Positions 142 through 47,971 are shown, numbered from the stretch's first letter. The stretch is DNA of 48,023 nt from a virus (IMGVR_UViG_3300049893_002232:1-48023); one strand, 5' to 3'. The notes: a model not told the origin generated them from the letters alone. Numbers and translations: made by a program.

Positions 142-1545
142 TTACTTAAGCACGTTATAGCCATAGACGACTGATTTTTCCACCGCACCTTGGGCATGAC
201 CTTGAAAGTCTTTGCGTTGGTAGCTTGCGAGAAGGAATCGATCTTGACTTGGTAGGTCGGGCATCATCTTGACGGTGATGGGTCGACGTTGACCGAGATA
301 CCATCGGGTCGTATTAACAAGCAAGACGCCAGCAAGGGTTGTTGTTACACCGTCGTAAACACCAGAGGCATTGAGGTCTTCTCTAAAGTGCTCGCTGTTT
401 ACAATTGGGATGCCCTGATACGCTGCCAATGCACCTTGCAGGACGGTTGCCTGCGGGCCGAACTTATCTACCGTACTAACATCTGGTAGAGCAAGGAATT
501 GAGTATAAACGGAAGGTCCACAGATCCAGAGCAGTTCACGAGGGTTCGAACCAAACTTGCCCATAGCAGCGCGAAGCTGTCTAAGCAAAGTCGTGTTGAA
601 AGCTGCACCGAAATTGACCGTGCTGCCGTTTGCGGAGTTTGCTAGTGCCTGCCTGCGCCATCCTTTCCAGATTTTTTCTGCTAGTTCTGCAGCGCCTGCT
701 TGAGTATCAGAGTCAATGTGAGTTCCATCATTGTCGCCGTTGATCATAGCAGACTCAACAGCACGGATCTGAGCGCGGACAACTTCGTCACGGCCAGCAG
801 CCATAAAATCAGGTGCGGAATCAGCAGTTAACTCTTCTGGAAGGACAAAGTATTCCGCTAATTTTGTGGCTGTAAAGGTAATAGCGGTGGTATTCCAATT
901 CGCCTCAGACATGGCAGTGTTTTCAGTCGCTTTACGCGCCTTGGTCACTCCGGTTTTAACTGGCTGAACGAATGGGTTTGATGGCATCGGGATAGTCTTG
1001 ACTCGTTGCTCAAGAACTTTATCAAGTTCATATTCGTCAATAAAACTAGAGGCATAGGCGGTTGGCACCCATTCATCGCCCGCACCAACTACCGTACTTC
1101 CAAACGCCTTAATCATGGGAGCAAGAACTTGGCGGCCATAATAATGGTCGAGTGTTCCTTTAACTCGACGAGTCATGTCACCTGTCTCATCCTTGCCGAT
1201 AACATCCATGGGTTCGCCATAAAACATTTGGCTGATCCATCGGCTGGTATCGACGGCGGTCTTAAACTCTCGCACGATGTGCTTAAGTTCAACTGGAACG
1301 TTCTTATAGCGCTCTGCACCAGTATTGATCCCGAGGAGTTGCTTGGGATGAGAAACGCCAAAATACATGAGAGCACGTTTTTCATCACTGGAACCACCGA
1401 CACTAAAACCAGATCGATAAGATCCGCTAGCTAGGTAATTCTTTTTTTCGTCTTCGAGTTCTTTAACTTTGTTTTCAGCAGCGGTGACTTTTTCACTCAT
1501 GGTTTTCATATCGTCAGAGAGTTTTTTGATTTCGTCGGGTTCCAT
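142..1545 (-). CDS. Major capsid protein, HK97 fold
   Basis: The 467-residue product forms the icosahedral shell. The first ~45 residues are a charged coiled coil, like the delta domain of HK97-type capsid precursors. The rest has the family layout: an E-loop/A-domain region and a C-terminal end with AYQGIPIVNSEHF, the GVLLVNTTRWYLGQ stretch, and a final QDRFLLASYQRKDFQGH segment. An AGAGG ribosome site sits 7-8 nt before the ATG. It follows the protease gene by about 20 bp and is closed by a strong terminator, as is usual for a highly expressed capsid gene. Whether the N-terminal arm is cleaved is inferred from the adjacent protease. Confidence 0.93.
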   Translation of the reverse strand: MEPDEIKKLSDDMKTMSEKVTAAENKVKELEDEKKNYLASGSYRSGFSVGGSSDEKRALMYFGVSHPKQLLGINTGAERYKNVPVELKHIVREFKTAVDTSRWISQMFYGEPMDVIGKDETGDMTRRVKGTLDHYYGRQVLAPMIKAFGSTVVGAGDEWVPTAYASSFIDEYELDKVLEQRVKTIPMPSNPFVQPVKTGVTKARKATENTAMSEANWNTTAITFTATKLAEYFVLPEELTADSAPDFMAAGRDEVVRAQIRAVESAMINGDNDGTHIDSDTQAGAAELAEKIWKGWRRQALANSANGSTVNFGAAFNTTLLRQLRAAMGKFGSNPRELLWICGPSVYTQFLALPDVSTVDKFGPQATVLQGALAAYQGIPIVNSEHFREDLNASGVYDGVTTTLAGVLLVNTTRWYLGQRRPITVKMMPDLPSQDRFLLASYQRKDFQGHAQGAVEKSVVYGYNVLK

Positions 1546-1566
1546 GCGGTTGCCTCTTTTATTATT

Positions 1567-2943
1567 TTAGATGTTCATTCGTTTTAAGGCTTGATTAATA
1601 TTATCACGGTATTTGCTAATTAGATCAAGTGACTTTGTAAGTTCCTCGTCTGCCTCTTCCTCTTCGCTCTCTTCTGGCTCCATTTTTCCTGGAGACATTT
1701 CATCAAATTTTTGACTTAACTTTTGGATTTCTTGAATTAAAGAACCTAGCAGGACATTGGTTTGACGCGCAAGCGCCAAATGAGGGTTATCATCTTGAGG
1801 CACCGCATCGGAACCAGCGGCGATAGGTATGGTCGGTGTTCCCATTGCCTTCTCTTTTGGTTTCTCGCTGCAAGCCTTAGCACCTTTAGTTGGCACGATT
1901 AGACCCATGATACCATCACCGAGTTCAACTTTGCTAGCACCTGATAGATCCAGGTCTTCTCCCTCGGCTTGTTGAAAAACAAAACTATTGTCCGTTTCAG
2001 TCATCATCCCGGGCTTATAACCATGCTCTTCAATAAATGACGCGGCTAACTCTGCATCCTCGAAAACCGACTTGGGAACCTCAACACTGAGAAGCAACAT
2101 CATCGGAGCAGATGGGTCGGCTTTTTCTTTTGGTTTTTCGTCATCCATAGGCTTTTTGTCGCCTTCTTTTGGGTTTTCTTTAGGCATTGGCTTTTCGTTT
2201 TCTTCGTCCATGGTGTCCTCTATGTCTAAGGCTTTTAGGATCGCTCTTTTAATGTGCGGTGGCATGGGAGTCAGGTCACCGTCTAAGCTGGCTTGAATAA
2301 CATCTTTTGGAGCATGTGCTATCTTAGCAGCGATCCCTAGGATGTCGGTAGCCTTTTTGCCAGTCTTAAACATTAGTGTCGCAATACCAGCAGCATCCAC
2401 CGCACCCTTAGCGATAAGACGCCGCTCATGGCAAAACATTTGACCGAAAAGATTGTGAGACTTTTGAAACCTTTTTTGTAACACGCTAAAGGTTGAATCT
2501 TGATTCATCGGGATCGGCACGATAGATTGCTCGATCAACTCAAAATCAGTTATGACCCTAACCCCGTCCTTGTCTTTTTCGTCCTTGGCCGGATCGAAGC
2601 CAATTGAGAAGGTTTTGAGTATCCCTTCTTCGACCAGATCCCGAATGGCTGAGATTTTTTCCGTTTTGGAATTTGATATATAAGCCTTCGTGTAAAGTCC
2701 GCTGTCCCTAGCTTCGATGGAAATAGCTTTTCCAACAGGCATTGAACCGAATGCCGGATCTTTACCATGGTCAAATAAAATAATGGGATTTTTTTTATAG
2801 TTTTCAAAACGTCCACCTTTTGGATCTACCCGCTCGAAACCACGATCAGGAACGTTAAAATTGCTATATCCTTCGATATAAATAGATCCATTTGATTTAT
2901 TTTTTTTCTCAAAAGGAAAGTTCAAATAATGGATGGTTCCCAT
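1567..2943 (-). CDS. Prohead protease (S78 type) with a long scaffold-like C-terminal extension
   Basis: Residues ~18-155 match the HK97 prohead protease family. His59 in LFDHG and Ser113 in KTFSIGF are the likely catalytic pair, and the family signature EGYSNFNVPDRG is near the N-terminus. The family is usually about 200 residues; this protein has 458. The extra part contains a Lys/Glu/Pro/Met-rich low-complexity stretch (residues ~235-280), a small folded segment and an acidic, coiled-coil C-terminus ending in SKYRDNINQALKRMNI. This suggests that protease and scaffold functions are fused, which is known in other siphophages. The start lies 3 bp after the portal stop. Confidence 0.88.
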   Translation of the reverse strand: MGTIHYLNFPFEKKNKSNGSIYIEGYSNFNVPDRGFERVDPKGGRFENYKKNPIILFDHGKDPAFGSMPVGKAISIEARDSGLYTKAYISNSKTEKISAIRDLVEEGILKTFSIGFDPAKDEKDKDGVRVITDFELIEQSIVPIPMNQDSTFSVLQKRFQKSHNLFGQMFCHERRLIAKGAVDAAGIATLMFKTGKKATDILGIAAKIAHAPKDVIQASLDGDLTPMPPHIKRAILKALDIEDTMDEENEKPMPKENPKEGDKKPMDDEKPKEKADPSAPMMLLLSVEVPKSVFEDAELAASFIEEHGYKPGMMTETDNSFVFQQAEGEDLDLSGASKVELGDGIMGLIVPTKGAKACSEKPKEKAMGTPTIPIAAGSDAVPQDDNPHLALARQTNVLLGSLIQEIQKLSQKFDEMSPGKMEPEESEEEEADEELTKSLDLISKYRDNINQALKRMNI

Positions 2944-2946: not shown

Positions 2947-5532
2947 TCAGGTCTCCTCGGCTTCAACGGTGATTTCTGGTGCTTCTATTTTACCCATTTC
3001 TTCTGCTGGTAACATAATCCAAGTGCAACGGCAATTGATGACCATTCCAGCATCGGCACCTGGAGCCCTAGGATATGGTAGCTCTTGACCTGATCGAGAG
3101 TCTTTAAAGTCTTTGTTATAATCGACAATCTGACCATTTAAACCAATGTGATCATATTTATCAGCGGCTTTAAGTCCGCGCGTACGATCATCGTTGGTGG
3201 AGATCCACATTTTTTTAAGGTCGGGGATCACTTTAGCCGCATCCTGCATCGCTGCAGCTTGGCCGATGGATAGAGCAGTGAGAGTTTCGGTTCTAGCAAT
3301 AGTCTCAGCTCTTGACTGAATATCCGGGATCTTAGTCATCTTATCGGCGATGGTCGATGCGATCTTATTGACCGGATCACCAGCCGTGACGCCTGCCTCT
3401 ATTATAGACATGATCCTTTCGGTGCTGGTATCGCTCATCTGTGCGAACCCTCGGAGGCCTCTCGCGGCTAAGATCTGCCTACGCTTCTTGGCATTGCGAG
3501 CACCGATAGCCTCGATCTGTTCCTGGTCGGGTAAACCAAAGGGAACATCAAGGGCAACGTCACGACCCAAGTCCAGAGTCGGCTCAAGGGTTTTCACATA
3601 GCCAGCTTCCCAAGGTCCCTTGAAACTATCCATGGCCGTGCGAATTCTTTTCTTAAGTTCTTTTTTGTCTTTAATCTCAGCCTTGGTTACCCAAGATTTT
3701 CTGGAGCCCACATGGTCCACGCGGAAACCATGTGACATAGGGACATAGCCCTTTTCGTCCTTAAGGTATTTCTTTACTTCTTTGAGAGCAGCAATGGTCT
3801 GAGCCTCGAACATGTCGAGCGTAAGTTTATAGATTCCTGGTTCTGCCTTGGAAGTCCCCGCTTCGATCTTGCGCTCACGCTGTTTAAACCATGAGTCATT
3901 GGCTTTGATCCATCGGTCCGCCATCTCTGATCTTTGCTTGATTACGTCATCAATCGAAGGCTCTTTAAGAGATGTGATGTCTTTGCTTTCGGTCTGGATC
4001 GCTCCATCAGGTGCGGTCGACGGATTGAAACCAGATCCAACTGAACCCATAATAGCGTTAGCATCTGCTTCACTAAGAGCGAAGGCAACTCTGATGATTT
4101 GAATTCCGGTATCTCTAGGGATCAGTCCTTGCGAGACCTGATTTACAATTTCAATCATACTTGAAACTTGAGCACCGTTCAAAGATTGCTGAGGGCTTGT
4201 TATGGCTTCAGATGCTGCATCAGGATTTAGTAGATCGGTTGACGGTGTTTCCTGAGCAACGGTGTTAAATATGCCACTAGCTGGTAACTGACCTGGAGTT
4301 CTCTCTCCGCCCGTCAACGGCTCATCGTTCCAAACTTCCTCTCGAACCTCGTTGAGTGTCCGAGTCGTGAGCATTGCGTTAGCAAGGTCGGCCTTTTGCT
4401 TTTTGTCCTCTTGCAAGATGTCCACGTCTGAGAGATCAAACTCAAGAAAGTGATTTTGTCCCAGAAAATCTTTCAGACCGAGACTCATTCCGCCTGCAAT
4501 GATTTTCATCATCGGCTTGAGAGTCGCTGCCCAAAAGTTTTTAAGAGCAGTCTTATACTCCTCGCTTCCAAGAGAGCCCGACTTTTGAAGGCCTACCTCG
4601 TGCGGTGGTACTTTGAGCAGAGCAAGGATGGTCTCTCGGTTCTGGGCGATATAGTCCTTCAGTTGTTGATCAGCAAGACTATGAGACATCGCCTTAGCTG
4701 TGACTCCCTTCGGTGTGACCAGCGGTCTCCTTTGGTTTCGTCGTCCGGTGTATGCAGCCTCAAAGCTTCGAAGCAATCTGAGAGCGTTGGTCTCGTTTGC
4801 CATCTCACCCATCTCCAAAACCATCGATGGTGAGGCACCCTTTTGATAAAAAGCATTCAGATACTCGGTCGAATATCTATTGAATAGGATGGCTCGTTGA
4901 CCTGCTAGGAACGGCGACAAACCCCAGATCATGCTTCCAGGGTTAGGCTTACGATAATGGATAATATCACTTGCATTAAAAACCCATTGCCTTAATGGGA
5001 CTGACATTCCCTCTTTATCCATACTTTCGAAGCTTCGATATTGTTTAATTCTACCAACATTATCAAAGTCAATATGAACGGTTTCAGCAGGGATATTATA
5101 TATTTTTTGAGCATCTCGACGAAACCATTGAATGGCGTTTCCTATTAGTGCCAAGTCAACAACGGTTGTATACATCCATGCGTGATAGTCTTGAAATTCG
5201 TTTGGAAAGTCGAGCATCTTTTGGACCGGATGGCCTTCCGCTGGTTCTATGACGGGCTTGCCATCTCGAATCTCTTGTTTCATAACTCTCAAGTATTGGT
5301 TTGAGATTTTCATAGCTATGAGATCAATGGTGATATAAACCCAGTCTTCATTTTCGAAAAGAGCTTTAAGATACATGGGGTCTAAAAATGCGGTATCATC
5401 AGTTGCCCACCGCCCACCTAAACCAACACCTTGGACGAGATTGGCTATCGATCCTGCGCTTTTTTCCTGAACCTCGGCCAGCTCCCTAGCTTCATAGTCA
5501 AAGTCACGCATATTAGTAGTCGTCGTCATCAT
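2947..5532 (-). CDS. Portal protein fused to a MuF-type head morphogenesis domain
   Basis: The N-terminal ~440 residues are an HK97-type portal, the dodecameric DNA gate at the capsid vertex: early LFENEDWVYITIDLIA, then the SMIWGLSPFLAGQRAI and PPHEVG region. The C-terminal ~200 residues match the phage Mu gpF-like minor head protein family, with IARTETLTALSIGQAAAM, a WISTNDDRTR segment and the closing MVINCRCTW. In most phages these are two genes. The middle (residues ~440-660) is less conserved. The open frame begins at a GTG (5544), but GAGG lies 6 nt before the second ATG of an ATGATG pair (5532/5529). It overlaps the terminase 3' end. Confidence 0.9.
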   Translation of the reverse strand: MMTTTTNMRDFDYEARELAEVQEKSAGSIANLVQGVGLGGRWATDDTAFLDPMYLKALFENEDWVYITIDLIAMKISNQYLRVMKQEIRDGKPVIEPAEGHPVQKMLDFPNEFQDYHAWMYTTVVDLALIGNAIQWFRRDAQKIYNIPAETVHIDFDNVGRIKQYRSFESMDKEGMSVPLRQWVFNASDIIHYRKPNPGSMIWGLSPFLAGQRAILFNRYSTEYLNAFYQKGASPSMVLEMGEMANETNALRLLRSFEAAYTGRRNQRRPLVTPKGVTAKAMSHSLADQQLKDYIAQNRETILALLKVPPHEVGLQKSGSLGSEEYKTALKNFWAATLKPMMKIIAGGMSLGLKDFLGQNHFLEFDLSDVDILQEDKKQKADLANAMLTTRTLNEVREEVWNDEPLTGGERTPGQLPASGIFNTVAQETPSTDLLNPDAASEAITSPQQSLNGAQVSSMIEIVNQVSQGLIPRDTGIQIIRVAFALSEADANAIMGSVGSGFNPSTAPDGAIQTESKDITSLKEPSIDDVIKQRSEMADRWIKANDSWFKQRERKIEAGTSKAEPGIYKLTLDMFEAQTIAALKEVKKYLKDEKGYVPMSHGFRVDHVGSRKSWVTKAEIKDKKELKKRIRTAMDSFKGPWEAGYVKTLEPTLDLGRDVALDVPFGLPDQEQIEAIGARNAKKRRQILAARGLRGFAQMSDTSTERIMSIIEAGVTAGDPVNKIASTIADKMTKIPDIQSRAETIARTETLTALSIGQAAAMQDAAKVIPDLKKMWISTNDDRTRGLKAADKYDHIGLNGQIVDYNKDFKDSRSGQELPYPRAPGADAGMVINCRCTWIMLPAEEMGKIEAPEITVEAEET

Positions 5533-7549: not shown

Positions 7550-7588
7550 GGTCGCTATTATGAGCATAACACGAGATAGAGGGCAAGC

Positions 7589-9254: not shown

Positions 9255-9278
9255 AAAAAAGAGAGTCTTAATGGAGGA

Positions 9279-13131: not shown

Positions 13132-13439
13132 CCAACCTCTTTGAGTTTGACTTGCAATATGTTCATCAACTCACGCTCAACATCTCTCGACAATACTAGC
13201 CGTTCGCCGCCGAAAAGTTCGGGCAACTTTTTAAAGTCGTTCAAAGTCAATCTGTCTGGCGATCGATAATAAGCGATCAACTCAGGGCTCACTAAGGCTT
13301 TATAGGCAGTCAATTTCTGGTTCACAAACAAAACCAGATCGTGAGTTTTCAAATCATTCAGAGCCGAAATTTCACTCAGCCCTTTATGACTCTTATGCAG
13401 ATTCACGCCAAAATAAATAGCCACCGCACGGATTTTCAT
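13128..13439 (-). CDS. Hypothetical protein
   Basis: 103 residues with two helical regions (LNDLKTHDLVLFVNQKLTAY and the C-terminal RDVERELMNILQVKLKEV). It is coupled on both sides by ATGA overlaps. One GTGCGGTGG copy lies in codons 4-7. Function unknown. Confidence 0.6.
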   Translation of the reverse strand: MKIRAVAIYFGVNLHKSHKGLSEISALNDLKTHDLVLFVNQKLTAYKALVSPELIAYYRSPDRLTLNDFKKLPELFGGERLVLSRDVERELMNILQVKLKEVG

Positions 13440-25687: not shown

Positions 25688-25859
25688 CATAAAGCACCTC
25701 GAATATATGATCCATATATTTATTGTGAGGTCGGCAAACATCGCAAACGGCGAAAGGTCGGACGTAGTACGGTGGCTCATCGACTTTCAAGGTAATTAAC
25801 CATTGAGAGTCTTCGCCACCGCACCAGTCGCATTTTGTTGGCTCTTCATCCTTCAGCAT
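25665..25859 (-). CDS. Small zinc-ribbon protein
   Basis: 64 residues with CDWCGG near residue 10 and CDVC near residue 40. It overlaps the upstream gene by 14 bp. The ribosome site is weak. Possibly a nucleic-acid or host-protein binder; no family recognised. Confidence 0.55.
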   Translation of the reverse strand: MLKDEEPTKCDWCGGEDSQWLITLKVDEPPYYVRPFAVCDVCRPHNKYMDHIFEVLYVTARSTN

Positions 25860-29813: not shown

Positions 29814-29984
29814 TCACACGATCCTCGTATTCTTAAAACACCCGACCACGTTTTTTCTATCGATAGCGATATCATCAAGAACCAGGCATTCAAAAAGTCT
29901 TTTCTGACAAATCGATTTATCCTCGGTAGCAGCCGGACCACCGCACCAAAGGGAAACCAAAGTTAATGCTTCATAAAGCGTCAT
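29814..29984 (-). CDS. Small possibly exported protein (56 residues)
   Basis: The frame MTLYEALTLVSLWCGG...KNTRIV is preceded by AGGAG at 6 nt, a strong site. The N-terminus is mildly hydrophobic and four further Cys follow, so export is possible; a spanin-like role with the two membrane proteins behind it is speculation. One GTGCGGTGG copy lies in its LWCGGP codons. Confidence 0.5.
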   Translation of the reverse strand: MTLYEALTLVSLWCGGPAATEDKSICQKRLFECLVLDDIAIDRKNVVGCFKNTRIV

Positions 29985-32817: not shown

Positions 32818-34773
32818 TTAAATTTCCTCATCTATTGTAGCGGATTGACCACCAGTGATACCGTTATATCCAGGGTTCCAAGAACCAAAAGGGAGCATCT
32901 GGAAGCTCCAAAGCTTGCTCACTATCTTGAGCCCATCGGGATCATACCCGATTTCTCGCACCATGGCCGGGACGTTTTCTAAATTGATACTAGCGACGTT
33001 GATATTCATTTTGACAAAAGATCCGATATCTAGCAACAACGCTCGCCAAGTTAAGTTAAGATCGAACGTCTCAATGATCCCGCTGGATATGCGCAAGATC
33101 TCTCTTAATTGAGCAACAACTTGACTTTCGACATAGAGGTTAGGGAAGACAATCTTTTTACTTATGGTTAGCCCAGTTTGAGTGATTGAGGCCGAGTTCT
33201 TTAGGATCGGAGTTGCCCTTACATTTTCATTAACAATTGGCAAAAAGTTAAAAGCGCCTTGGGCACGATTAAAGTTGTTTCGGTCATCGATCTGGGTTCG
33301 CATGCTATTGCGCTCGATGTCCCAGTTTTTGACGGTATAGCTAGGAGTGTCGTCCCAGTCCTCAAAATGAAGAGCATTAATCTTGAGTTTTAGGTTCCGA
33401 TCGATGAAAGCCTCAAGCCTAATCTGCTCGAAAATGGATAGGCCATAAGTCAAAACTGGGCTTTGCTCAGATACCCATATTCTCGACTTTATTGAAGCCA
33501 CCGCACTTTGGGAAGGACTCGCCTTGTCGCGATAGGTAGCCCAGTTAGAATCAAAGTCACCATCGACGAGGCCACCATAAGTTTTCAAAAGATCTTTGAC
33601 CTGCTCTACGGGGTTGTCTCGGTAGCTGCTCAAGTCCTTGCCGATCACTTGACAATAAAACTCGTCCGAGTCAGACCATTCATAAGGGATCAGGACACCA
33701 GCGCCATCGTTCATCCATGTGGCACCCTGCTGAATCGTGAAAAAATTCTTGTCACCATTAACGAAGGCAATTTCAGCCGATGGAACCAGATTATAAATCT
33801 CGCCTCTCTTGACGTAGACCGTATCAGTATCAAAAAGAAAATTGACGTTAGAACTCACCACAAGCTCTATATCAGCCCTAGCTGAACCAGTGGCAGCCTT
33901 GACGGTATGGTTTCCTGAACCACCAGTGGCATTTATCAAAGCACCTAAAGGGGTCGCACTGATGTTAAACGTATCAGCCGTTGGGTTTCTTGCATAATAT
34001 ACAGTCGCCGCAACAAGAGGGCTTGGCAAAGTTCCACTGGTAGCAAACTCTATTGAATCGCCCTCATCAAAACCATGTGCGGTGGATGTGTGTGTCGTCC
34101 CGGCTATTGTCACTGGTTTTTCTTTGAAACTGACTTGTGGATCATTACCGTTGACAACGTAGGCAGGAACTGCCGATGGATATGGGTCAAGTTCGGTGGT
34201 CCAGTCTCCATAAATCACTGGCAGAAGCTTACCTAAATTCTTCTGCTCACACCTCGGATATGAACCATACGTTATTGCGGCGGTCGGGAACTTAGCATTG
34301 ATCCGGTCGAAGTTGTCACGAGCAACGATAACAATACTCTTTATGGTTCTTCTAAATCCACCCACCGGAGTGATCGAGCCCTTAAAAACCGTGGTATAGG
34401 TCGATGCTTGCTCAGCCAATCCAAGCTTGACGACAACTTGCTTCCCTACCCAAGATCCATAGTCTGCACCACCTGGGAGATATTTATTGAATCGTTCGTC
34501 CACGTTTGAGAGTTCAAGTGTCAGCGTTGCAAACTGAAGTTCGTTCGAAAGCCATTCACCAACGGTTCTTTGAATCGTTGGGAAAACAAGCAAAGCCTCA
34601 TAGAAAACACCACCAACGTATTTATTGCGATCACTCGCATAGATGGTCCCATCCGGTGACTCAATTTCGCAGATCATCTCAAGCCGACACTCAAGGTTAT
34701 CATGACAAGCGTCAAGAAAATCCTGAGTCAAAGCCGTTGCTGTTAAGTATGGTCTTCTATCTGAGCTACTCAT
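32818..34773 (-). CDS. Baseplate hub/tail-tip-like protein
   Basis: 651 residues. The N-terminal ~170 residues are a beta-rich domain with MICEIESPDGTIYASDRN and a LTLELSNVDERFNKYLPGG segment, followed by an inserted immunoglobulin-like or beta-tandem region (~210-300, DEGDSIEFATSGTLP) and a C-terminal hub-like part (FEQIRLEAFIDRNLKLKINA, MLPFGSWNPGYNG). Position after the tape measure and the repeat protein fits a hub that attaches fibres. The family assignment is inferred from order and size. Confidence 0.6.
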   Translation of the reverse strand: MSSSDRRPYLTATALTQDFLDACHDNLECRLEMICEIESPDGTIYASDRNKYVGGVFYEALLVFPTIQRTVGEWLSNELQFATLTLELSNVDERFNKYLPGGADYGSWVGKQVVVKLGLAEQASTYTTVFKGSITPVGGFRRTIKSIVIVARDNFDRINAKFPTAAITYGSYPRCEQKNLGKLLPVIYGDWTTELDPYPSAVPAYVVNGNDPQVSFKEKPVTIAGTTHTSTAHGFDEGDSIEFATSGTLPSPLVAATVYYARNPTADTFNISATPLGALINATGGSGNHTVKAATGSARADIELVVSSNVNFLFDTDTVYVKRGEIYNLVPSAEIAFVNGDKNFFTIQQGATWMNDGAGVLIPYEWSDSDEFYCQVIGKDLSSYRDNPVEQVKDLLKTYGGLVDGDFDSNWATYRDKASPSQSAVASIKSRIWVSEQSPVLTYGLSIFEQIRLEAFIDRNLKLKINALHFEDWDDTPSYTVKNWDIERNSMRTQIDDRNNFNRAQGAFNFLPIVNENVRATPILKNSASITQTGLTISKKIVFPNLYVESQVVAQLREILRISSGIIETFDLNLTWRALLLDIGSFVKMNINVASINLENVPAMVREIGYDPDGLKIVSKLWSFQMLPFGSWNPGYNGITGGQSATIDEEI

Positions 34774-34850: not shown

Positions 34851-36451
34851 AGGCTCTCATCTATCTCCACCACTAAGTTGACAATATCCGCTGCTGCTCC
34901 GAGGTTCTGGTGTTCCTCTTCAGGGATTTCGCTTAATTTACCGAACACCGTAAATCGAGTTGGATCTTGAGGGTCAGGCATCCACAAACATTTTAAACTA
35001 GTTCGCGCTGTTTCAAAGATAGATATCAGGTTATCGAAATTCCCTTTTTCGTAGTCGAGTGCATTGAACGAAATGGTAATGGCTCTTTTAATAGCTCGAT
35101 CGTTTGCGACGTTGGTGTATCCTTCAGTAGGAACCTTATCAGAAAAGTGTTTAGTTCTCCTTCGAACCTGATCGATAATATCCTCTCCTTGGAAGATGAT
35201 CGCACTACCGAAAACCACGGTGCCGACCTGTAAATAACCATCGAGGTTAGTCGTGTCGCTAATATTTATTCGCCAATATCTGAACTGTGCGGTGGGTAAG
35301 GTCGGAGCCACATAGTATGAGTTAATACTAGTCGCACTGATCGGGATACTTGCACCGATTGAGCTAAAGGCACTATCGTTCGATCCCTCGAAAATAACCA
35401 CGGCACTGGATGTCCAGTTATGATTAAGTATGGCCACGGTATCAGGTGCAATGCCTTGGTTGATTTCGGTGTCACAAGCAAGAGTTGCGGTGAGGGCTCC
35501 ATTGCTTCTCCAAACCTGTTCGACAATATCCGTATTCAAGTTATTGGCGGAGAAATCACCTGCAAGGGTTGACGACGCTTGCCAGTTGAGTCCCGAACCT
35601 CTCGGTTGTCCCCAAGCATTGTTGCCAGCTCCAGCCGCACCACGGCTAGGGAAGTCACAAAGAATCCTGATGCGTCGATTGTTATAAAGGACGAAACGGA
35701 CCTGAGAGCCGAGTGAAACAGCATTAATCCTCTCAACCTGAGAGCCTAAGAAAACCAAGTCTTCAATGACTCGATCGACTTCTGATCCCAAAGATTTTAA
35801 AGATTGAATGCTCCGATCAACCTGAGAGCCTAATGGTGTCGTGTCACGAATGGCCATCTCGACTTGGTTTCCAACGTGAGCACAAAAACCAGCCGATAAA
35901 TACGGTCCAGAGAGATACGGACTAAAAAGATAGCCGTTGCATTGCCAATGAGAAATATAATTTTCGCGCCTAACTTGAGACCCCATGAACTCGGGATATC
36001 CCAGCAATTGACGATCAACCTCAGAACCGAGGAATGCTGTATCAGCTATTTTTCTCTCAACTTGAGAGCCCAAAAAGTTCTCTTCACGAAGTTCCCGATC
36101 AACTTGAGATCCCAAGAATTTTGAACCAGTTGTTATTAGTCGATCAACTTCGGTCCCAAGCTCACCCATTCCACTGGTTATTCTATCAACTTGAGAGCCA
36201 AGGAAACTTGTATCCTGTATCTCCCGATCAACTTGAGAGCCAAGCGGACTGACATCCTGAATCTCACGGTCGATCTGAGAACCAAGGTCAAAAGTATCCT
36301 GAATTTGACGGCTGACTTGTGAGCCTAAATTCTTTGTGTCACGAATCACCAACTCGACTTGGCAAGCTAGGTGATCGATCACGAAGTTGGTTAGATATGG
36401 ATCGGCAAGATATGGCCGCTCAAGATAACCATATGTAATAGGACTTGTCAT
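34847..36451 (-). CDS. Tail protein with ~15 LGSQVDR repeats and a discoidin-like domain
   Basis: 534 residues. After MTSPITYGYLERPYLADPYL come about 15 units of 12-15 residues around L-G-S-Q-V-D-R-x-I (residues ~29-255). A break near residue 165 has a second PYLSGPYLSAGF motif, which suggests the whole block was duplicated. Residues ~260-420 look like a discoidin/galactose-binding beta-sandwich (TVAILNHNWTSSAVVIFEGS, FRYWRINISD). The final ~110 residues are a mixed domain ending LVVEIDESL. It follows the tape measure gene with a 4-bp overlap, the distal-tail position. The repeats may form a beta-solenoid or fibre-docking stack. Confidence 0.65.
   Translation of the reverse strand: MTSPITYGYLERPYLADPYLTNFVIDHLACQVELVIRDTKNLGSQVSRQIQDTFDLGSQIDREIQDVSPLGSQVDREIQDTSFLGSQVDRITSGMGELGTEVDRLITTGSKFLGSQVDRELREENFLGSQVERKIADTAFLGSEVDRQLLGYPEFMGSQVRRENYISHWQCNGYLFSPYLSGPYLSAGFCAHVGNQVEMAIRDTTPLGSQVDRSIQSLKSLGSEVDRVIEDLVFLGSQVERINAVSLGSQVRFVLYNNRRIRILCDFPSRGAAGAGNNAWGQPRGSGLNWQASSTLAGDFSANNLNTDIVEQVWRSNGALTATLACDTEINQGIAPDTVAILNHNWTSSAVVIFEGSNDSAFSSIGASIPISATSINSYYVAPTLPTAQFRYWRINISDTTNLDGYLQVGTVVFGSAIIFQGEDIIDQVRRRTKHFSDKVPTEGYTNVANDRAIKRAITISFNALDYEKGNFDNLISIFETARTSLKCLWMPDPQDPTRFTVFGKLSEIPEEEHQNLGAAADIVNLVVEIDESL
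35690..36370 (-). repeat. Tandem ~42-bp coding repeats (LGSQVDR units)
   Basis: The plus strand shows repeated blocks like cgatcaacttgagagcc, spaced about 42 bp. They encode the LGSQVDR units. Units differ at the third codon positions and in their linkers, so the array is old, not a recent slippage product. Confidence 0.85.
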
Positions 36452-39400
36452 GCGCTGCGAACTCCTGGAGCGTAGACCAAGGTTTGACCGTCGATCGATG
36501 CTCTTTTAATTTGCTCTTTAACAACTGGATAGACTTTGTTTTTGATAAATGCTTCATCCATTGGTTGAGTCGTATTGATCGTTAAATTGATGGTATTGTT
36601 GATAACTGGAGCTTGTCCACCGTTTCCGCCTCGATTCAAACTTTCGAGAAAACCAGTGCCAACACGGTCCACCGCACCGTTATTCATGACAAACTCACCT
36701 GGCTTCAGCATGGCCGGGACTTCACCGCCGTTATGAAACCTATTAGATTCAAATATTTTCATCACAACTTTTGAAATTTGATCAGCGACTTGCTTCCAAA
36801 GAGAAGCCGGGTCGAAATCTGGGAAGACCTTACCAAGCGCTTCGGCTACTGGTGATGTTTTCTCTTGAATATATTTTTTCCCAGACTCGACAAGGCCACC
36901 AAGTCCAAATTGCGGTAGAGCCTTGTCCTGCAAAATTGATTCAATAAGTTTCTTAGTCACTGGATCACTCATTGCTGATCTCGGTATCACCACCTCGCCT
37001 GGACTTAGCAGAGCCAAGATCTTGTCATTTAAAACTGAGTCCCCCGATACAGTAGCAGAACCTGGAACTTTACCGCCTCGAGCAAAAGAGAGAAAAGGCA
37101 TGTCGATTCCTAAAGCCCTTTCCACCGCACCTTTGTCCCCAAAAGCATTGCTGGGGATGCGAAAAATCTTTTCGAAAAGAGCTGATGGGTTAATAGCATT
37201 GATCGCATTGGCTATCACTGAACCGATCCCACTAAAAGCCTTTTTAAGGTTGTTCCAAATCTTATCCCCGATCGACACGAGACCATCGAACACGGTTTTG
37301 ATATACGAAAAAACTGACAAGAAAACATCGGCTGCACCCTTCAGATAAACTCTGGCGGTTTCGAATACAGATCCAAATATATTGGCCACACCTTCGAGAG
37401 CGACTTTTCCGACTCCCCAAACAGCCCTAAAGACTTCTGCCACATGGTTAAAGATCTCAGCACCTATTTTGAAAACCGCATCAAATATATTTATTTTCCC
37501 TTGGAATAGATCCATAAGAACGTTCCAAATGTTTTTGACCATATCCCATGCAGAAGTAAAAATAGACATCATCGCATCCCAAATCGACTTGGCGACATTC
37601 CAAACCGATTGGAAAACAACCATAAGAGTATCCCATACCGAACTAAGCACTTTCATCATGGAATCCCAAATAGTTTGGACGATAGCCCATGACGCTTCAA
37701 AGACTTTTATCATTGCCGACCATGCGGTTTTTAAGAGATCGATGAACGGCAAAATGATGGTGTTATAAACAAAAAGCCAAACCTCACGCAAACCAGCAAG
37801 CAAAGGCTTGATGATGAAGTCATAGACAAATGACCATACAGCTTTAATTCCATTGAATATCGGTAAAATGATATTGTCATAAACCCAGCGCCATGCATCG
37901 ATGAGCCCTTGCCATGCGTCACCAGCACCTTTACCGAGTTTTTCGATATTATCGTTAACGGCATCCTCAGCGGTTTTGGCAAACTCTGCTAGTTTGTCCC
38001 CACCAGCCTTTGCTCCTTCTTCGAGATCCACGACGGCAAAAAGTTTTGATGCGACACCTGTCAGCGTTTTTGTCACGGTTTTTAAACCAAGTGCAAAGTT
38101 CTTGGCGATCTCAGATGGCTTGGGGATGATCCCCTTTCCAAGCTCTTTAAACATTTTTGGCAACGACTTGATGGCGTCAAGAATTCCATTGATGATAGCC
38201 ATGGGAATCTCAATCGCCAATGCCTTGGCCAACTCCACGGCAATGTATGGTCCTTTTTTAATCAAGAAATTGATTAAGCTAACAACTATTTTCGGTGTCG
38301 CTTGTATCAGTTTTTCAACAAAATTTTCGACTAAATCAGGCAATCTATCTAAAAGTCCTGTCAGCATGTCTGGAAGTCCTGCTAACAAGTTAGCGAAAAC
38401 ATCGGGCAGATTAGCAAAGAACTCGATGAACTTTTCTAGAAGCTTAGGCACCATACTGAGCACGTTAGGTATGAAGTCAGCCACGAACTTCAATAGAGCG
38501 TCACCGAGTTTTGATACACCCTCTAAGATTTTCATCGGCAATTCAGTGAGGCTTGTAAAAATCCCGGTGATCTTGTCGAGCATCTGTGGGATGAAATCAA
38601 TGAGTCCTTGAATCGCATCAGCAAACGCTCCGGCACCAGCCAACATACCGCTAATCGGTCCTTGAAAAGCCTTTGCAACTTGGTTTCCTAGATTGCCACC
38701 TGCCATCTGTGCGGCTTCAAAATCAGCGTCCGGAGCCTTTGCTGCAAGCATCTCAGCTCTTAATTTAATCTGCTCTTCGGTGAGATCGAGTTGAGCCAAA
38801 GCCTCTTTGTTGAGTTCTTTATCAAGCATCAGTTTTTCGCGACGTTTGGAGATCTCTTCCAAGTCAGCTTGTTTTTGCATATTGATACGATCCACGGTTG
38901 TGGCGTCAATATCTTTGATCTGGTTTTGAACGTCTTTATATAGTTTGACTTGCTCTTCTAAGTTCTTTTTTCTTAGGTCTTTTGTCTGTGCGGTGGCTAT
39001 AGCTTGCGCCGTGTCACGAGCAATTTTTAATTGATCTTGAGCTGCCTTCGATAACGAGTTTTCTTTAACCAGTTTTTGCTCGATGAGTGCAATTTCTTGC
39101 ATACGAGCATTAAGATTATTTTGAATCTTTTGACCTTCTCCAGCACCAATGTCATCTAACTCTTTTTTAAGTTCGCCAACTTTTTTAACCAGCTCATCGA
39201 AAGTTTTTTTGCCCTCTTCTGACATGGTTTTTAAGGTGTCGAGAGTTTTGCGACCTTTACCGTTAGCAAACTCTAACTCTTTGCCGAAGTCTTTTGCACT
39301 GTCAGTCGTTTGATCAAAACCAGCTTTGAAGCCACCAAGTGCAGCAGTGGCTTGATTGAACCCCTCAATCAAAAGCCCTGGTTTTAAGTCCTCACTTAAA

Positions 39401-40692
39401 TTGACTGCTGACTTGGCAATCTTATCTGCCTCAGCTCCTACTTTATCAGCAAGGCTATCAAGTCCGATTGCCCTAAATGTTTTTTCCCAAATAGATAGCA
39501 GACCAGTGGTAACGACACTAAAACCAGCCAATAAGGCTTGTGGCAATTTTTCTACGTTAGCGACAAGAAAATCTAAGGCGACAACTGCGGTTGTTATTGC
39601 CGTTGCCATTAATGCAAATTTTGCGGTTGTTACAGCCGTGGCCATTCCAAGTTTAACCATGGCTCCAGCCGATGATGAAATGCTGATTAAAAATGTTCCA
39701 AAAGCCTGAGCATTCATGGCCAAAGCTAGAGCACCAATTGCAACTCCAGCTCTTAAAACCAGTCCTATAAATGATTCCAATTGATCTAAGAGGGCACCAA
39801 AATTTATGGCTTTTATCGCTTCACTTAACCCGACAAAAACAGCACGGACGGTAGTGACTGCTTCAATAGCTGATGGTTTTATAGACTCAATTTCATTCTT
39901 AATAGATCTTAAAAAAGAGTTTAAACTTGCGGTTGACCCCTCAAGATCGAGCCCCTTAGAAATGATTTCACCAAGCTCCTCGGCAATATTTCCTAGATTA
40001 ATCATCGTGGCTTTGATTTCGCCAATAGGTCCGAGTGATTTTCCCATACCAGATAAACGTTCACCAAGGACGTCCGCAGCTTTTCCAGCTCTCAATTCAG
40101 CATCGGACAAACCAGATAATAAATTGGCGAGAGGTCCAAGCGATCTTTCTTGCCCTTTCATGGTGAGCAAAAGTTTATTGAAAGCTTGATCAACATCGGT
40201 TCCCAAGGCACCAGCCATATCTATAGATGTCTTAATAAACTTTTCAATTTGATTATTCGTTAGACCAGCAGAGGCACCAAGCTTCGCCAAACCGAGAATA
40301 GATTCGGCTTCAACGTTTGTAGTTTCCTCTAACTGATCTGCCAGCTCTTGAAATCGTGTCACTGTCCCGGCGACGTCCTTATCCCCTAGGATCGATAACG
40401 TTTTTGCAAACTGTCTTGATGCATCCTCTGCTTTTAAAAAGTCACCAACCATTTTTGTGACTGGTCCGACAAGCCCAGCAAAAACTTTCTTCGAGAGTTC
40501 AAGAGCCTGATTTATCTTAACCACCGCACCGCCGAAACCAGTGATTGACTTTTCGGTTCGCTGAGAAGTTTGAGCAACTATTTTTAAAGAATCCTGAATT
40601 GCTTCTAATGAATGATTCATCAAACCGAGGGAAGCCACCGCATTCTTAGTGTCAGCCTGCACCTTTATGAGTAGGTCTTCTGTTATTGCCAT
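36448..40692 (-). CDS. Tape measure protein
   Basis: 1414 residues, the largest gene. It sets tail length; at roughly 0.15 nm per residue the tail would be about 210 nm. The N-terminus (MAITEDLLIKVQADTKNAVA) leads into a TP901-type core with a conserved stretch LGLAKLGASAGLTNNQIEKF, several hydrophobic membrane-capable segments (~300-390, ~700-850), a Trp-rich ~11-residue repeat zone (IWDSMMKVLSSVWDTLMVVF and kin, ~930-1100), and C-terminal SPGEVVIPRSAM and KPGEFVMNNGAV motifs. The start overlaps gpT by 41 bp with GGGAG upstream. Confidence 0.95.
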   Translation of the reverse strand: MAITEDLLIKVQADTKNAVASLGLMNHSLEAIQDSLKIVAQTSQRTEKSITGFGGAVVKINQALELSKKVFAGLVGPVTKMVGDFLKAEDASRQFAKTLSILGDKDVAGTVTRFQELADQLEETTNVEAESILGLAKLGASAGLTNNQIEKFIKTSIDMAGALGTDVDQAFNKLLLTMKGQERSLGPLANLLSGLSDAELRAGKAADVLGERLSGMGKSLGPIGEIKATMINLGNIAEELGEIISKGLDLEGSTASLNSFLRSIKNEIESIKPSAIEAVTTVRAVFVGLSEAIKAINFGALLDQLESFIGLVLRAGVAIGALALAMNAQAFGTFLISISSSAGAMVKLGMATAVTTAKFALMATAITTAVVALDFLVANVEKLPQALLAGFSVVTTGLLSIWEKTFRAIGLDSLADKVGAEADKIAKSAVNLSEDLKPGLLIEGFNQATAALGGFKAGFDQTTDSAKDFGKELEFANGKGRKTLDTLKTMSEEGKKTFDELVKKVGELKKELDDIGAGEGQKIQNNLNARMQEIALIEQKLVKENSLSKAAQDQLKIARDTAQAIATAQTKDLRKKNLEEQVKLYKDVQNQIKDIDATTVDRINMQKQADLEEISKRREKLMLDKELNKEALAQLDLTEEQIKLRAEMLAAKAPDADFEAAQMAGGNLGNQVAKAFQGPISGMLAGAGAFADAIQGLIDFIPQMLDKITGIFTSLTELPMKILEGVSKLGDALLKFVADFIPNVLSMVPKLLEKFIEFFANLPDVFANLLAGLPDMLTGLLDRLPDLVENFVEKLIQATPKIVVSLINFLIKKGPYIAVELAKALAIEIPMAIINGILDAIKSLPKMFKELGKGIIPKPSEIAKNFALGLKTVTKTLTGVASKLFAVVDLEEGAKAGGDKLAEFAKTAEDAVNDNIEKLGKGAGDAWQGLIDAWRWVYDNIILPIFNGIKAVWSFVYDFIIKPLLAGLREVWLFVYNTIILPFIDLLKTAWSAMIKVFEASWAIVQTIWDSMMKVLSSVWDTLMVVFQSVWNVAKSIWDAMMSIFTSAWDMVKNIWNVLMDLFQGKINIFDAVFKIGAEIFNHVAEVFRAVWGVGKVALEGVANIFGSVFETARVYLKGAADVFLSVFSYIKTVFDGLVSIGDKIWNNLKKAFSGIGSVIANAINAINPSALFEKIFRIPSNAFGDKGAVERALGIDMPFLSFARGGKVPGSATVSGDSVLNDKILALLSPGEVVIPRSAMSDPVTKKLIESILQDKALPQFGLGGLVESGKKYIQEKTSPVAEALGKVFPDFDPASLWKQVADQISKVVMKIFESNRFHNGGEVPAMLKPGEFVMNNGAVDRVGTGFLESLNRGGNGGQAPVINNTINLTINTTQPMDEAFIKNKVYPVVKEQIKRASIDGQTLVYAPGVRSA

Positions 40693-41116: not shown

Positions 41117-41580
41117 TTTTTTAGATTTTCTGATCCACTATATTTTGCCAAATAGTTCCGACGAGCTACATATAAATCGTTGGTTATCCCAGCAGCATCT
41201 AATAGGGACATGAGTTGAGGCTGGGCTCCGCCGTCACCATCTTTTTTAAAAACCAAGCCATTCGGACAATGAGCCGGGTTTTTTATGTCAACAAGAGCCC
41301 ACCGCACTTCGGCGCTTATATGGCTGGTCCCGATATAGATTGATCCATCATCCTTGTTATATTGCATAGCTTTTGACTTGATAGATTCCTCAGCTCTATT
41401 GGGCAAAACTTTACGCAATAAGAATATAGTTGGTTCATCCCCAGGCTTAATTTTTAGGAGTCCTTTATCGAGCGTTTTTTGATACTCTTCATATTCTTTT
41501 TCATTCATGTCTAAAGCCGTATCACATGATGCGACAACTTCCAAATATCCATCCTGTAAATGACTCAAATTGATTGCCAT
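41110..41580 (-). CDS. Tail assembly chaperone G part
   Basis: 156 residues from MAINLSHLQDGYLEV; GGAG lies just before this ATG, and M1 at 41592 is less likely. Acidic and helical in the first part (MNEKEYEEYQKTLDKGLL), then a mixed domain to GSENLKKS. It would coat the tape measure during tail assembly. A slippery A run lies three codons before its stop. Confidence 0.78.
   Translation of the reverse strand: MAINLSHLQDGYLEVVASCDTALDMNEKEYEEYQKTLDKGLLKIKPGDEPTIFLLRKVLPNRAEESIKSKAMQYNKDDGSIYIGTSHISAEVRWALVDIKNPAHCPNGLVFKKDGDGGAQPQLMSLLDAAGITNDLYVARRNYLAKYSGSENLKKS
41115..41122 (-). other. Programmed -1 ribosomal frameshift site (A8)
   Basis: On the minus strand the zero-frame codons are CTA AAA AAA AGC TAA. 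The heptamer A AAA AAA has perfect X XXY YYZ form. A -1 slip continues as AAG CTA ACG GCC TTG into the gpT frame. Confidence 0.8.
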
Positions 41581-41590
41581 AATTTTCTCC

Positions 41591-41623
41591 AAAAAAAATA
41601 TCTCATCCTAGCCGGATGAGATA
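41591..41623 (-). terminator. Second of two tandem terminators after the tail tube gene
   Basis: TATCTCATCC (41599-41608) and GGATGAGATA (41614-41623) form a perfect 10-bp stem, 5-nt loop, followed by eight T residues on the minus strand. The T run leads straight into the GGAG of the chaperone gene. Confidence 0.9.
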
Positions 41624-41738: not shown

Positions 41739-42986
41739 TTACAGATAACTTGCCGTGATTTCGTCCTTCGTGTCAAACCCTGTTTGCAGCGCTAAACCAT
41801 CGTTGAATGGAATTGGGATTGAACCAGTCTCGGGAACATTGACGGTTGGTGTCGAAAAATCAACTTTTGGAAGTTCAAGTTCGAACCGTCTACCTGCTGC
41901 TTCCCCAAGAACCAAAGTGATGTCCTGAGCTTCAAATTCAGTCACACGTTTTAGAAGTTTGAAAGTATCTTTATTTAGGTTCATTTCCATATTAACTGTT
42001 GCGGTGAGTCGATCACCAGCAACAAAGATTGATCCACCTGCTGAGTCCTCACCATAGCAATCGTTTCGAAGCTCATGGTTATTGGCAACGGTCACTTGAA
42101 GAGATCTAATACATTGATAACCACCGAGAGATGGAATTGTAACGCTTCCGGTTAAACCAGTGACAGGATCATTGATGGCGGTTGGGTTTGCTGGCTCGTA
42201 GTAGCAAAGATATATCGGAGCGTTGACACCGCTACCATCAGCATCGGCAAGAGCCGCACCATCGAGAGTGACCACCGCACCAGAGACGGAAACAATTTTT
42301 CTTGGTGATCCGTTCGGTGTATCTGCTGATCGTGTGGTTCCATCGGCTTCGATGAGCATGACCATAGCACCAACGGCATTAGCGAAAAGATCAGCATCAG
42401 CAGCTTGAACCGTTACAGTGTTACCACCATCATTATCAATGGTAGACTTGCCGATCCCGACATAAAGAGCGTCCTTGCCTTGACCACTCCACTCGATCAT
42501 GGACTCGCCATCGCCTGGGAACTGCAACACGGCTTGCTGAACGAAGCAGCCTCGACCTTGGCGAGCCCACCGATCCCCACATTCTAAAAGAGAAAAGGTG
42601 AAATCTGGAACGGTCCGAGTATAGATCAAACCAGATGAAACTACTTCTTTTCCGAGCAGGGACTTCCAAAGCTCTCTCAACGCCGGGTCGATTTCCGCTG
42701 CACCGCCTGAGCCCAAAGACGTGTCAATGTTGAAATAAGTCGAAAGAGACCAATTTTGCTCTTTTTTCTTCCTAATTTTTCCAACGTGCCCTCGTCCCGA
42801 TCGATGCGGGCTTGATTCACTTGGCTGCGAGAACTCGATGGTCCCACCTGCGAGTGTAAAAAAGAAATCAGCATCAGTTGGAGCGATAAGACTTCCACGT
42901 GTCGTCTCCGCTTTCAAATAGAACCGTTGCTCAACTGCGGTTGAATCACCTGTAAAATTATAAAGATCAGCGTAGTTTTTTGCCAT
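41739..42986 (-). CDS. Major tail (tube) protein
   Basis: 415 residues. N-terminal MAKNYADLYNFTGDSTAVEQ and RFYLKAETTRGSLIAPTDADFFFTLAGGTIEFSQP fit the tail tube fold seen in long-tailed siphophages; the C-terminal ~130 residues (from IPSLGGYQCIRSLQVTVANN) look like an appended Ig-like/decorative domain, with TATVNMEMNLNKDTFKLLKRV typical of the tube family. It is followed by two terminators, as expected for an abundant product. Confidence 0.82.
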   Translation of the reverse strand: MAKNYADLYNFTGDSTAVEQRFYLKAETTRGSLIAPTDADFFFTLAGGTIEFSQPSESSPHRSGRGHVGKIRKKKEQNWSLSTYFNIDTSLGSGGAAEIDPALRELWKSLLGKEVVSSGLIYTRTVPDFTFSLLECGDRWARQGRGCFVQQAVLQFPGDGESMIEWSGQGKDALYVGIGKSTIDNDGGNTVTVQAADADLFANAVGAMVMLIEADGTTRSADTPNGSPRKIVSVSGAVVTLDGAALADADGSGVNAPIYLCYYEPANPTAINDPVTGLTGSVTIPSLGGYQCIRSLQVTVANNHELRNDCYGEDSAGGSIFVAGDRLTATVNMEMNLNKDTFKLLKRVTEFEAQDITLVLGEAAGRRFELELPKVDFSTPTVNVPETGSIPIPFNDGLALQTGFDTKDEITASYL

Positions 42987-43926: not shown

Positions 43927-44534
43927 ATATTCCAAATCCCCACCTCTGCACCAGCAATTTCAGTCCGTCTAAACTGATCCAACGTGGCTTTGACGTGCGG
44001 TGGCCAATTTTGGATATAGCCCGCTGATTCCCCTTCTTTACTTTTGCTCGTCCTACCAATGTTTTGACCTTCACGCATGCGGTTATAATAGGCAACGATC
44101 CATAGGCAAGCGTTTTCAAGACTACTCGGGATCGTGGAGAAACCAGCCGTATAGATAACTCTGATATTATGAAATCCCTTGCTAAAGACTTGCCCATTCA
44201 CCAAAATGATGGTGTTGTTAGCGTCTCCAATTCTATAATCATCTGAATCGATCAATGAGTCTGAGCTTGTAAAATCAGCTTCAAAGTCGATTCTCAGTTC
44301 TGTTACAGAGATAATTGGATATTGATCTAACAAAAGAATATTTTGATTTCGACCATGATGATATTCAGTGTACGATTGAGACTTAAATTGACGTTGGCAG
44401 TAACGCTCGATGTCATCGCTAGCCGCGTTAATGAATAGCTCTATCATGCTATCCATTCCGGTCTCAAGGGTTGGAATCTTGAGATATGCTTTGGCCGTGG
44501 CCAGAGTTGTCATTGCGTTACCATTCAAAGCCAT
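43923..44534 (-). CDS. Gp6-like head-tail connector (adaptor)
   Basis: 203 residues. MTTLATAKAYLKIPTLETGM, ASDDIERYCQRQFKSQSYTE, YPIISVTELRID and YTAGFSTIPSSLENACLWIV match the HK97 gp6-like family, which forms a ring under the portal. GAGG precedes the ATG. Confidence 0.88.
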   Translation of the reverse strand: MALNGNAMTTLATAKAYLKIPTLETGMDSMIELFINAASDDIERYCQRQFKSQSYTEYHHGRNQNILLLDQYPIISVTELRIDFEADFTSSDSLIDSDDYRIGDANNTIILVNGQVFSKGFHNIRVIYTAGFSTIPSSLENACLWIVAYYNRMREGQNIGRTSKSKEGESAGYIQNWPPHVKATLDQFRRTEIAGAEVGIWNI

Positions 44535-46452: not shown

Positions 46453-47154
46453 TTAGCTTGCTTCCTCGATTACTCGGACATCAAGACCAGCAGCATCCCC
46501 GATTGCCCATACGTCCACATCTTCGCTATAATCAAAACTCTCTTCGCCCTTGGCTGGAATCAAATATCCGTTTGCTGCTGTAACGGCATTGCTTGTCCCG
46601 ATCCACATATCACGGTTACCTAAATTTTGTATCCGAATATTAGTCCGATTTGCAAGAGGTGATGATACCAATTCACTAGCAGTTAAACCAACAGTTTCAG
46701 CCGTCACCAAAAACCCAGTCTTAACGTCCACCGCACGAATAACACCAGTCGATTTCCAAGATCTGATCCGATCCCAAGTCGTGCCGTTGAAACCAAGTAA
46801 AGCAGAGTTGACATCCTGGCCGTGGAAGTTGGCAGCAACAATAGCGTCAACAGATGCAGCGGCTCCGGTAGTTCTCTTTGTTTGATCTGCATCGGCTGGG
46901 GATGCAGCACGAACGTGGAAAATTGCGCCAATGTTATCGGGATCGGTGTTGTTTACACCGTCGTAAATACCATCGATATTGACGGTTAAAGGGTTGATGA
47001 TGTTAACGTCCAGACCTTCTTTTCCGCCAACATTAGTTGAGCTAATGCGATCGCCATCGGAACCAGCTCTTAACCATGCGCCAACGTTATCGCTGGCTAA
47101 AATAGTGTCTGCATCAGTAATGTCAAAACCAAGTCTTCGTCCACCAATAGACAT
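46453..47154 (-). CDS. Structural protein, head region
   Basis: 233 residues, Gly/Ala/Asp-rich and beta-predicted. MSIGGRRLGFDITDADTILA, GLDVNIINPLTVNIDGIYDG, then a C-terminal NIRIQNLGNRDMWIGTSNAV domain related in pattern to the small beta protein at 45972-46292. Likely capsid decoration or head-fibre. Family not assigned. Confidence 0.6.
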   Translation of the reverse strand: MSIGGRRLGFDITDADTILASDNVGAWLRAGSDGDRISSTNVGGKEGLDVNIINPLTVNIDGIYDGVNNTDPDNIGAIFHVRAASPADADQTKRTTGAAASVDAIVAANFHGQDVNSALLGFNGTTWDRIRSWKSTGVIRAVDVKTGFLVTAETVGLTASELVSSPLANRTNIRIQNLGNRDMWIGTSNAVTAANGYLIPAKGEESFDYSEDVDVWAIGDAAGLDVRVIEEAS

Positions 47155-47158
47155 AATT

Positions 47159-47971
47159 TTACCCCCATGTTTCTATTTCAATTATTGTATTGGGCTTATT
47201 AGATTGCCAATAGATTGTCCAATTTGTCGTGGGATCGAGATTTATTCTACCATACTCTGACCCTGCGTAAACGGTTTGACCAGAAATTGAAGTCATCCCA
47301 ACAGCCCAAGAAACTAGCAATTGAGCGTTAGGAGTTGGCGTTTTTAAATAAATATTTTTGGTTCCTACTGGTAAACCGTAACTATACTCAGTATTCGCAT
47401 TTATATAAGTTTGCTTATGAGCAATGACACTTGATAATGGATCAGTGTTTGCAACCACCGCACCGACAATCTCGACTTGACCTATGCCATTGTCTCCACG
47501 CCACGCATACCATTTCCCATCCGACCCCAAAACCATGACAGGTGAGCCCTTGTCATTGTTGAGTTCAGCAGTTTGCCCATCCAAAAGATTGGGCTCTTGA
47601 GGGAAATCGGCAACAACAGCGATATGTATTCCTAGAGTTACGTTCCCACCTGAGACGATGACTTCTGCCTTTGGTTTATTGGCAAGCCTGGCTATGATCC
47701 TTCGATCACTGCGAGGCGTCCCAATATTGATCAAAGGATGACCATCTAAATCAACTCTCTCACCAGCTAAAGTCCCATCGCCGGGACCACAGTCATGATA
47801 ATTGACTTTGACACTTGCACCGACATCTAAGTCTTGAACAAAGATGGTCGATAAGATTGAGTTCCCTGCTGGCATGCCGAATTGAAATTGATACGTTCCC
47901 GGTGTGAACTCTTGAATCGGGACAATAACTTTTGCTTCATATAAACCGATGCGAAAATTAACTTCAGCCAT
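47159..47971 (-). CDS. Structural protein following the capsid gene
   Basis: 270 residues; transcription reaches it from the capsid gene across the circular join. N-terminal MAEVNFRIGLYEAKVIVPIQ, a beta-rich body with GHPLINIGTPRSDRRIIARL and WYAWRGDNGIGQVEIVG, and a C-terminal NTEYSYGLPVGTKNIYLKTP domain. It may decorate the capsid. The first 25 codons lie in the terminal repeat. Confidence 0.6.
   Translation of the reverse strand: MAEVNFRIGLYEAKVIVPIQEFTPGTYQFQFGMPAGNSILSTIFVQDLDVGASVKVNYHDCGPGDGTLAGERVDLDGHPLINIGTPRSDRRIIARLANKPKAEVIVSGGNVTLGIHIAVVADFPQEPNLLDGQTAELNNDKGSPVMVLGSDGKWYAWRGDNGIGQVEIVGAVVANTDPLSSVIAHKQTYINANTEYSYGLPVGTKNIYLKTPTPNAQLLVSWAVGMTSISGQTVYAGSEYGRINLDPTTNWTIYWQSNKPNTIIEIETWG

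Follow-up and report, generated by a model that had tools for sequence, protein, structure and literature searches.

The window, by which we mean the whole 48,023-nucleotide stretch of viral DNA analysed here, bears a 127-bp direct terminal repeat (1-127 and 47897-48023) and is therefore regarded as a complete circular genome of 47,896 unique bases. Its gene content is that of a tailed phage: one module comprises the capsid, protease, portal and terminase genes, the tape measure is long, and genes for primase, helicase, Sak4 and YqaJ exonuclease are present. A ParB-like gene and a TET-associated glycosyltransferase (TAGT) lie at 7589-9254 on the plus strand, opposite to the main gene direction. 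No integrase or repressor was recognised among the proteins scanned against Pfam and PHROGs, where many small ORFs stayed unclassified, and tRNA genes were found neither in the window nor in its full-length relative G013. A DNA search of the phage collection, tried with 16 kb of the window, returned no match, and the nearest cultured phage as judged by helicase (43.5%) and primase (35%) is the distant Bdellovibrio phage phi1422. Eleven AGGTTTACA repeats, in both orientations, occupy intergenic DNA beside the primase gene (15364-15691), and this cluster is probably an iteron-type replication origin. The lysis region (23325-24414) contains a CAP-domain lipoprotein-like protein (CAP assigned by Pfam) and a transglycosylase-like ORF, the latter and the signal peptides having been assigned by eye; the region suggests a Gram-negative host. 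The clade as a whole is virulent-looking, comprising tailed phages with circularly permuted genomes.

Dispersed through this genome, from 180 to 47463, are 24 exact copies of the nonamer GTGCGGTGG (Table 1), 16 on the minus strand and 8 on the plus strand, a recount that bears out the number given in the first-pass annotation. The resulting density is approximately 0.5/kb, or about one copy per 2 kb. Markov models of orders 0-3 predict 0.13-0.27 copies, and 500 shuffles of 40 genes that preserve protein and codon usage predict 0.55 and never exceed 3; in an independent second gene set, 22 copies were observed against 0.41 by synonymous-codon shuffle. The earlier claim of an excess far above chance thus holds over the full range of expectations (0.13-0.55), and it withstands the codon-preserving shuffles that had been named as its check. 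Over-representation in the window is approximately 35-160 fold, and among the non-AT 9-mers GTGCGGTGG is by far the most frequent. The copies do fall in five codon registers, as had been claimed (sense 0, 1 and 2; antisense 0 and 1), and one-base variants, which had been described as rare, number 11 in total over all 27 variants against 4.5 expected. The word is strict, in that both TGCGGTGG and the heptamer GTGCGGT occur 25 times in the window. The flanks, previously described as random, are not fully so: G precedes 12-13 copies, mostly in the Gly codon of the Gly-Ala-Val reading, and 10 of the 11 GAV[DEGAV] tetrapeptides in the window's main genes are spelled with GTGCGGTGG.

Table 1. Exact copies of GTGCGGTGG in the window, with gene context and state in relatives.
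Copy	Position	Strand	Context
1	180..188	-	Major capsid gene 142-1545; reads GAV, kin SAT
2	2254..2262	+	Antisense in prohead protease gene 1567-2943
3	2397..2405	-	Protease gene; all letters kept in G013, G012, G014
4	4600..4608	+	Antisense in portal gene; kept in G013
5	13421..13429	-	Small ORF 13128-13439
6	16146..16154	+	Antisense in primase gene 15748-18216
7	16518..16526	-	Primase gene; GAVV
8	17868..17876	+	Antisense in primase gene
9	20444..20452	-	ORF 20337-20813, weak SSB-like match
10	25816..25824	-	ORF 25665-25859, third register (WCGG); kept in G013 despite different adjacent residue
11	28943..28951	-	Tail fibre gene; kept in G013
12	29938..29946	-	Overlaps GTG start of ORF 29687-29941
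13	33498..33506	-	Tail-region gene 32818-34773
14	34077..34085	+	Antisense in gene 32818-34773; kept in G013
15	35287..35295	+	Antisense in gene 34847-36451
16	36669..36677	-	Tape measure gene 36448-40692
17	37122..37130	-	Tape measure gene
18	38988..38996	+	Antisense in tape measure gene
19	40521..40529	-	Tape measure gene
20	41299..41307	-	Gene 41110-41592; register VRW
21	42272..42280	-	Tail protein gene 41739-42986; G013 protein 82% identical, without the word
22	43995..44003	+	Antisense in head-tail adaptor gene 43923-44534
23	46728..46736	-	Gene 46453-47154; G013 protein 82% identical, without the word
24	47455..47463	-	Gene 47159-47971; kept in G013 and G014

With respect to genes, 14 of the copies are sense, 8 antisense and 2 outside, and the strand split of 16:8 is not significant (p 0.15). 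The first-pass annotation had pointed to a denser distribution in the structural half and to the empty stretch 4609-13420; the former lies within chance (KS p 0.27), and the latter is indeed free of copies but unremarkable, as long gaps in the window are not significant (P of a gap of at least 8.8 kb = 0.21). No clustering was seen near the origin or the terminase, where Chi sites in lambdoid phages have been reported to cluster. A lack of significant clustering or strand bias is what would be expected of sites that serve the DNA as such. For calibration, the best dispersed 9-mer was scored in 14.6-kb pieces of 97 unrelated viral loci, giving a median z of 6.1 and a 95th percentile of 9.3; pieces from the word clade gave z of 7-20, the best 9-mer being nearly always GTGCGGTGG. 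One short piece by itself would thus not settle the matter, and it is the whole genomes and the relatives that carry the argument.

A capsid profile search of viral contigs recovered 80 relatives, three of which carry GTGCGGTGG: the 48,751-bp G013, with 21 copies against 0.32-0.54 expected (10 sense, 9 antisense, 2 outside), G012, with 3 in 5.9 kb, and G014, with 4 in 4.8 kb. Three more carriers came from a primase profile: L290 (7 in 14.6 kb) and L291 (6 in 12.2 kb), each with an expectation of 0.02-0.03, and L300 (1 in 5.7 kb). In a capsid tree, the four GTGCGGTGG records with a capsid sequence form one clade (99%; 0 of 500 shuffles), near a clade of GTGCGGT records. Once rotated, G013 is collinear with the window at a mean protein identity of 60%, and 6 of the 23 window copies that can be aligned to it are identical at all nine bases, compared to 2.5% of other 9-mers (p 1.5e-5). 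The remaining 17 were gained or lost via ungapped substitution, with no inserts, and the peptide is often altered where copies have turned over (GAVE versus SATE, RAVD versus KVVD). As the word is either kept or substituted within orthologous genes, selection acts on the word itself, at sites that turn over. The earlier proposal of selection on DNA and not on protein is upheld accordingly by the failure of codon shuffles, by relatives with conserved proteins that carry the word and by this turnover. We consider it close to certain that GTGCGGTGG is a real selected DNA site, and read it as a strict, clade-specific, asymmetric recognition site.

The first-pass annotation had also proposed that related phages be checked for the word, and the outcome is divided: the nearest clade has GTGCGGTGG itself, but the wider kin have only its core, GTGCGGT. 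In 75 capsid-relative records this heptamer occurs 257 times against 84 expected, an approximately threefold enrichment that ranks second of 8,192 heptamers, the first and third being trinucleotide runs. Codon shuffles confirm the enrichment in G021, G023, G008, G006, L069, L076 and others, and in 114 unrelated viral loci the core is at chance (138 versus 143). It is followed by GG in the word clade, mostly by T in G006, G008 and L292, and by GA in L043; the kin words GTGCGGTGG, GTGCGGTT and GTGCGGTGA thus have a common core and differing flanks. A sister clade has another dispersed word, GTAAAGAC, present in 14-15 copies (approximately eight times the codon-shuffle expectation) in both orientations and several registers, and carried by L120 (G015), L118-L119 (G018), L050 and L044. 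Phage phi1422 (L020) likewise has a word of its own, TCGGATTC, dispersed in 23 copies, with 22 in genes against 3.5 expected, and this may be the same phenomenon. TCGGATTC is at chance (16 versus 16.4) in the 400 kb of Bdellovibrio bacteriovorus sequence examined, which comes from a strain that is perhaps not phi1422's own host. None of the papers searched gives GTGCGGTGG as a motif.

Counted in approximately 1,020 genomes spanning seven bacterial groups, GTGCGGTGG reaches a maximum of approximately 0.05/kb, whereas the phage has 0.5/kb; for most of the sampled genomes the count is about equal to or under that of a reversed-word control. A 16S-type pattern gave named centres in many phyla, and the seven groups counted lie outside Desulfobacterota, Myxococcota, Chloroflexota, Planctomycetota, Actinomycetota, Cyanobacteriota, Spirochaetota, Campylobacterota and Patescibacteria. 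Bdellovibrionota, suggested as host by phi1422, gave a negative count, as did six other groups, and were rejected. The capsid profile found no relative among genome contigs, and as such no host is indicated by relatedness. One genome of the class Gammaproteobacteria (G362) stands out, its 2.0 Mb holding 96 copies of the word and 19 of the control; among the larger counts with both strands balanced, no other genome showed so high a relative excess.

As to what might read the word, the ParB/TAGT proteins put forward in the first-pass annotation do not fare well. TAGT was not found in G013, which has the word in 21 copies, and is excluded; the ParB-like gene was not found in G021, G023 and G006, where GTGCGGT is enriched, and is an unlikely reader. 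The whole replication module is missing from G021 and G006, which have only the structural module in common with the window, and since the core is enriched there alongside different replication genes, the word could be read by something other than the phage's replication machinery. No window gene is common to all core-enriched records and absent from others, only structural genes being universal. A reader common to the whole lineage would have to be encoded by the structural module, by a small ORF that escaped recognition, or by the host.

The reading that we tentatively place first is a Chi-like role for GTGCGGTGG. An asymmetric, G-rich, context-free word on both strands of a phage whose permuted genome probably forms concatemers has an anatomy that fits Chi. 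On this reading, an AddAB/RecBCD-type helicase-nuclease would travel along the phage DNA from ends or breaks, meet GTGCGGTGG, and there switch from degradation to recombination-proficient processing, which would spare the phage DNA and help concatemer formation ahead of headful packaging. Permuted genomes have no fixed ends, and both orientations would thus be needed everywhere; where clades differ in their word, a switch of host or enzyme would lie behind it. The Sak4 and YqaJ recombination genes of the window are taken partly in favour of this role and partly against it, since in lambdoid phages possession of the phage's own recombination genes lowers the need for Chi. The lack of TCGGATTC enrichment in the 400 kb from the host species of phi1422 also counts against it. 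Chi itself (E. coli GCTGGTGG and its equivalents in B. subtilis, L. lactis and S. aureus) is likewise short, asymmetric and G-rich, with the ending GGTGG, and is scattered through genes and enriched in concatemer-packaging phages (PMC3784561, PMC8022716). Chi words vary among bacterial groups (PMC8022716), and Chi is over-represented in many phages, by approximately 2.3, above all in T5-like and P1-like phages, which depend on concatemers (PMC3784561). However, GTGCGGTGG matches no known Chi, differs from all five proteobacterial Chi words given in PMC8022716, and is enriched tens of fold rather than approximately twofold. The missing host word, together with an over-representation far higher than that of Chi, argues against a plain host Chi site; the host Chi site of the first-pass annotation stays the leading guess, albeit with no genome among the approximately 1,020 sampled having the word at Chi-like density.

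Nearly as likely is that a phage-encoded, sequence-specific protein binds GTGCGGTGG genome-wide, in a stoperator-like manner or so as to organise, silence or mark phage DNA, in which case motif and protein would drift together and give each clade its own word. Consistent with this, the word is found in phages and not in the sampled hosts, TCGGATTC is not a motif of phi1422's host species, the core is kept among kin as the flanks vary, the sister clade has GTAAAGAC, and 0.5/kb is near stoperator numbers of up to approximately 30 per mycobacteriophage genome (PMC6550527). The stoperators of Cluster A mycobacteriophages are similarly asymmetric, occur at approximately 0.5/kb, and show gradual motif change around a common core (PMC6550527, PMC9283540), their motifs resembling one another without matching exactly between related phages (PMC6550527); such drift is likewise found among the window and its wider kin. 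They are, however, 13 bp long, lie mostly in one orientation to transcription (PMC6550527), and are read by a known repressor. GTGCGGTGG, in contrast, sits inside genes on both strands, without a single main orientation in either the window or G013, and no repressor or integrase was found among the proteins scanned; furthermore, G021 and G006 have the core yet only the structural module in common, leaving no obvious common reader gene. A host chromosome-wide motif other than Chi, such as a DNA uptake sequence or a KOPS-like or segregation motif, is an improbable model for the word. Uptake words occur on both strands at 0.5-1/kb, and the Haemophilus uptake word AAGTGCGGT, which contains GTGCGGT, is like GTGCGGTGG a dispersed exact 9-mer; its core is nonetheless preceded by AA, where that of GTGCGGTGG is followed by GG. 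AA precedes only two GTGCGGT of the window, which thus holds only two copies of AAGTGCGGT, and neither the genomes sampled in Haemophilus's class nor those of other groups show such a density of GTGCGGTGG or offer a competent host that uses it.

More improbable still is recognition by the phage primase or another replication protein, for priming or pausing. The carriers L290, L291, G013 and the window do have related primases, and phi1422, whose primase is 35% identical, has its own word; but G021 and G006 have the core in the absence of this primase, its relatives L293, L295 and L296 lack the word, and the primase recognition sites known so far span 3-5 bases. We give almost no credence to an artefact of composition or codon use, or to a short insert that spreads, as the codon shuffles and the orthologue comparison refute it. 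The commonest reading, Gly-Ala-Val, is a mild peptide, but shuffles reach at most 3 copies, the word occupies five registers on two strands, the differences from orthologues are ungapped substitutions and not inserts, and the core is not enriched in unrelated phages. We hold as a conjecture, less likely than not, that a family of uncultured tailed phages fills its genomes with asymmetric words, peculiar to each clade and not in use on the host chromosome, which are read by a phage-encoded or infection-specific factor. This would be a phage DNA code of a new kind, spread over the whole genome and distinct from both Chi and stoperators.

Few phages are known in which one exact asymmetric 9-mer is kept at 0.5/kb against protein evolution, and the over-representation of GTGCGGTGG is tens of times that of Chi. 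Were the role Chi-like, GTGCGGTGG would reveal the Chi word of a bacterial lineage and could serve to tag the hosts of many phages known from metagenomes; were the word read by the phage, it would represent a new genome-wide recognition system. In either case, turnover in orthologous genes and replacement in the sister clade make the co-evolution of word and reader directly testable.

Other arrangements of repeated words were encountered. A search of viral contigs for unrelated phages with the word, by a pattern of two copies close together, gave among the matches listed local tandem repeats and no dispersed words. Also among the matches listed, unrelated viral contigs (G032, G036, G037, G040, G042-G044 and G046-G049; e.g. 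L142: 8656-8922) share a layout of GTGCGGTGG in which two direct copies lie 11 bp apart and an inverted copy 247 bp away. In G024 (L121-L123), CGTTTAAAC, with the palindromic core GTTTAAAC, occurs in many places, including intergenic ones, and these are possibly operator sites.
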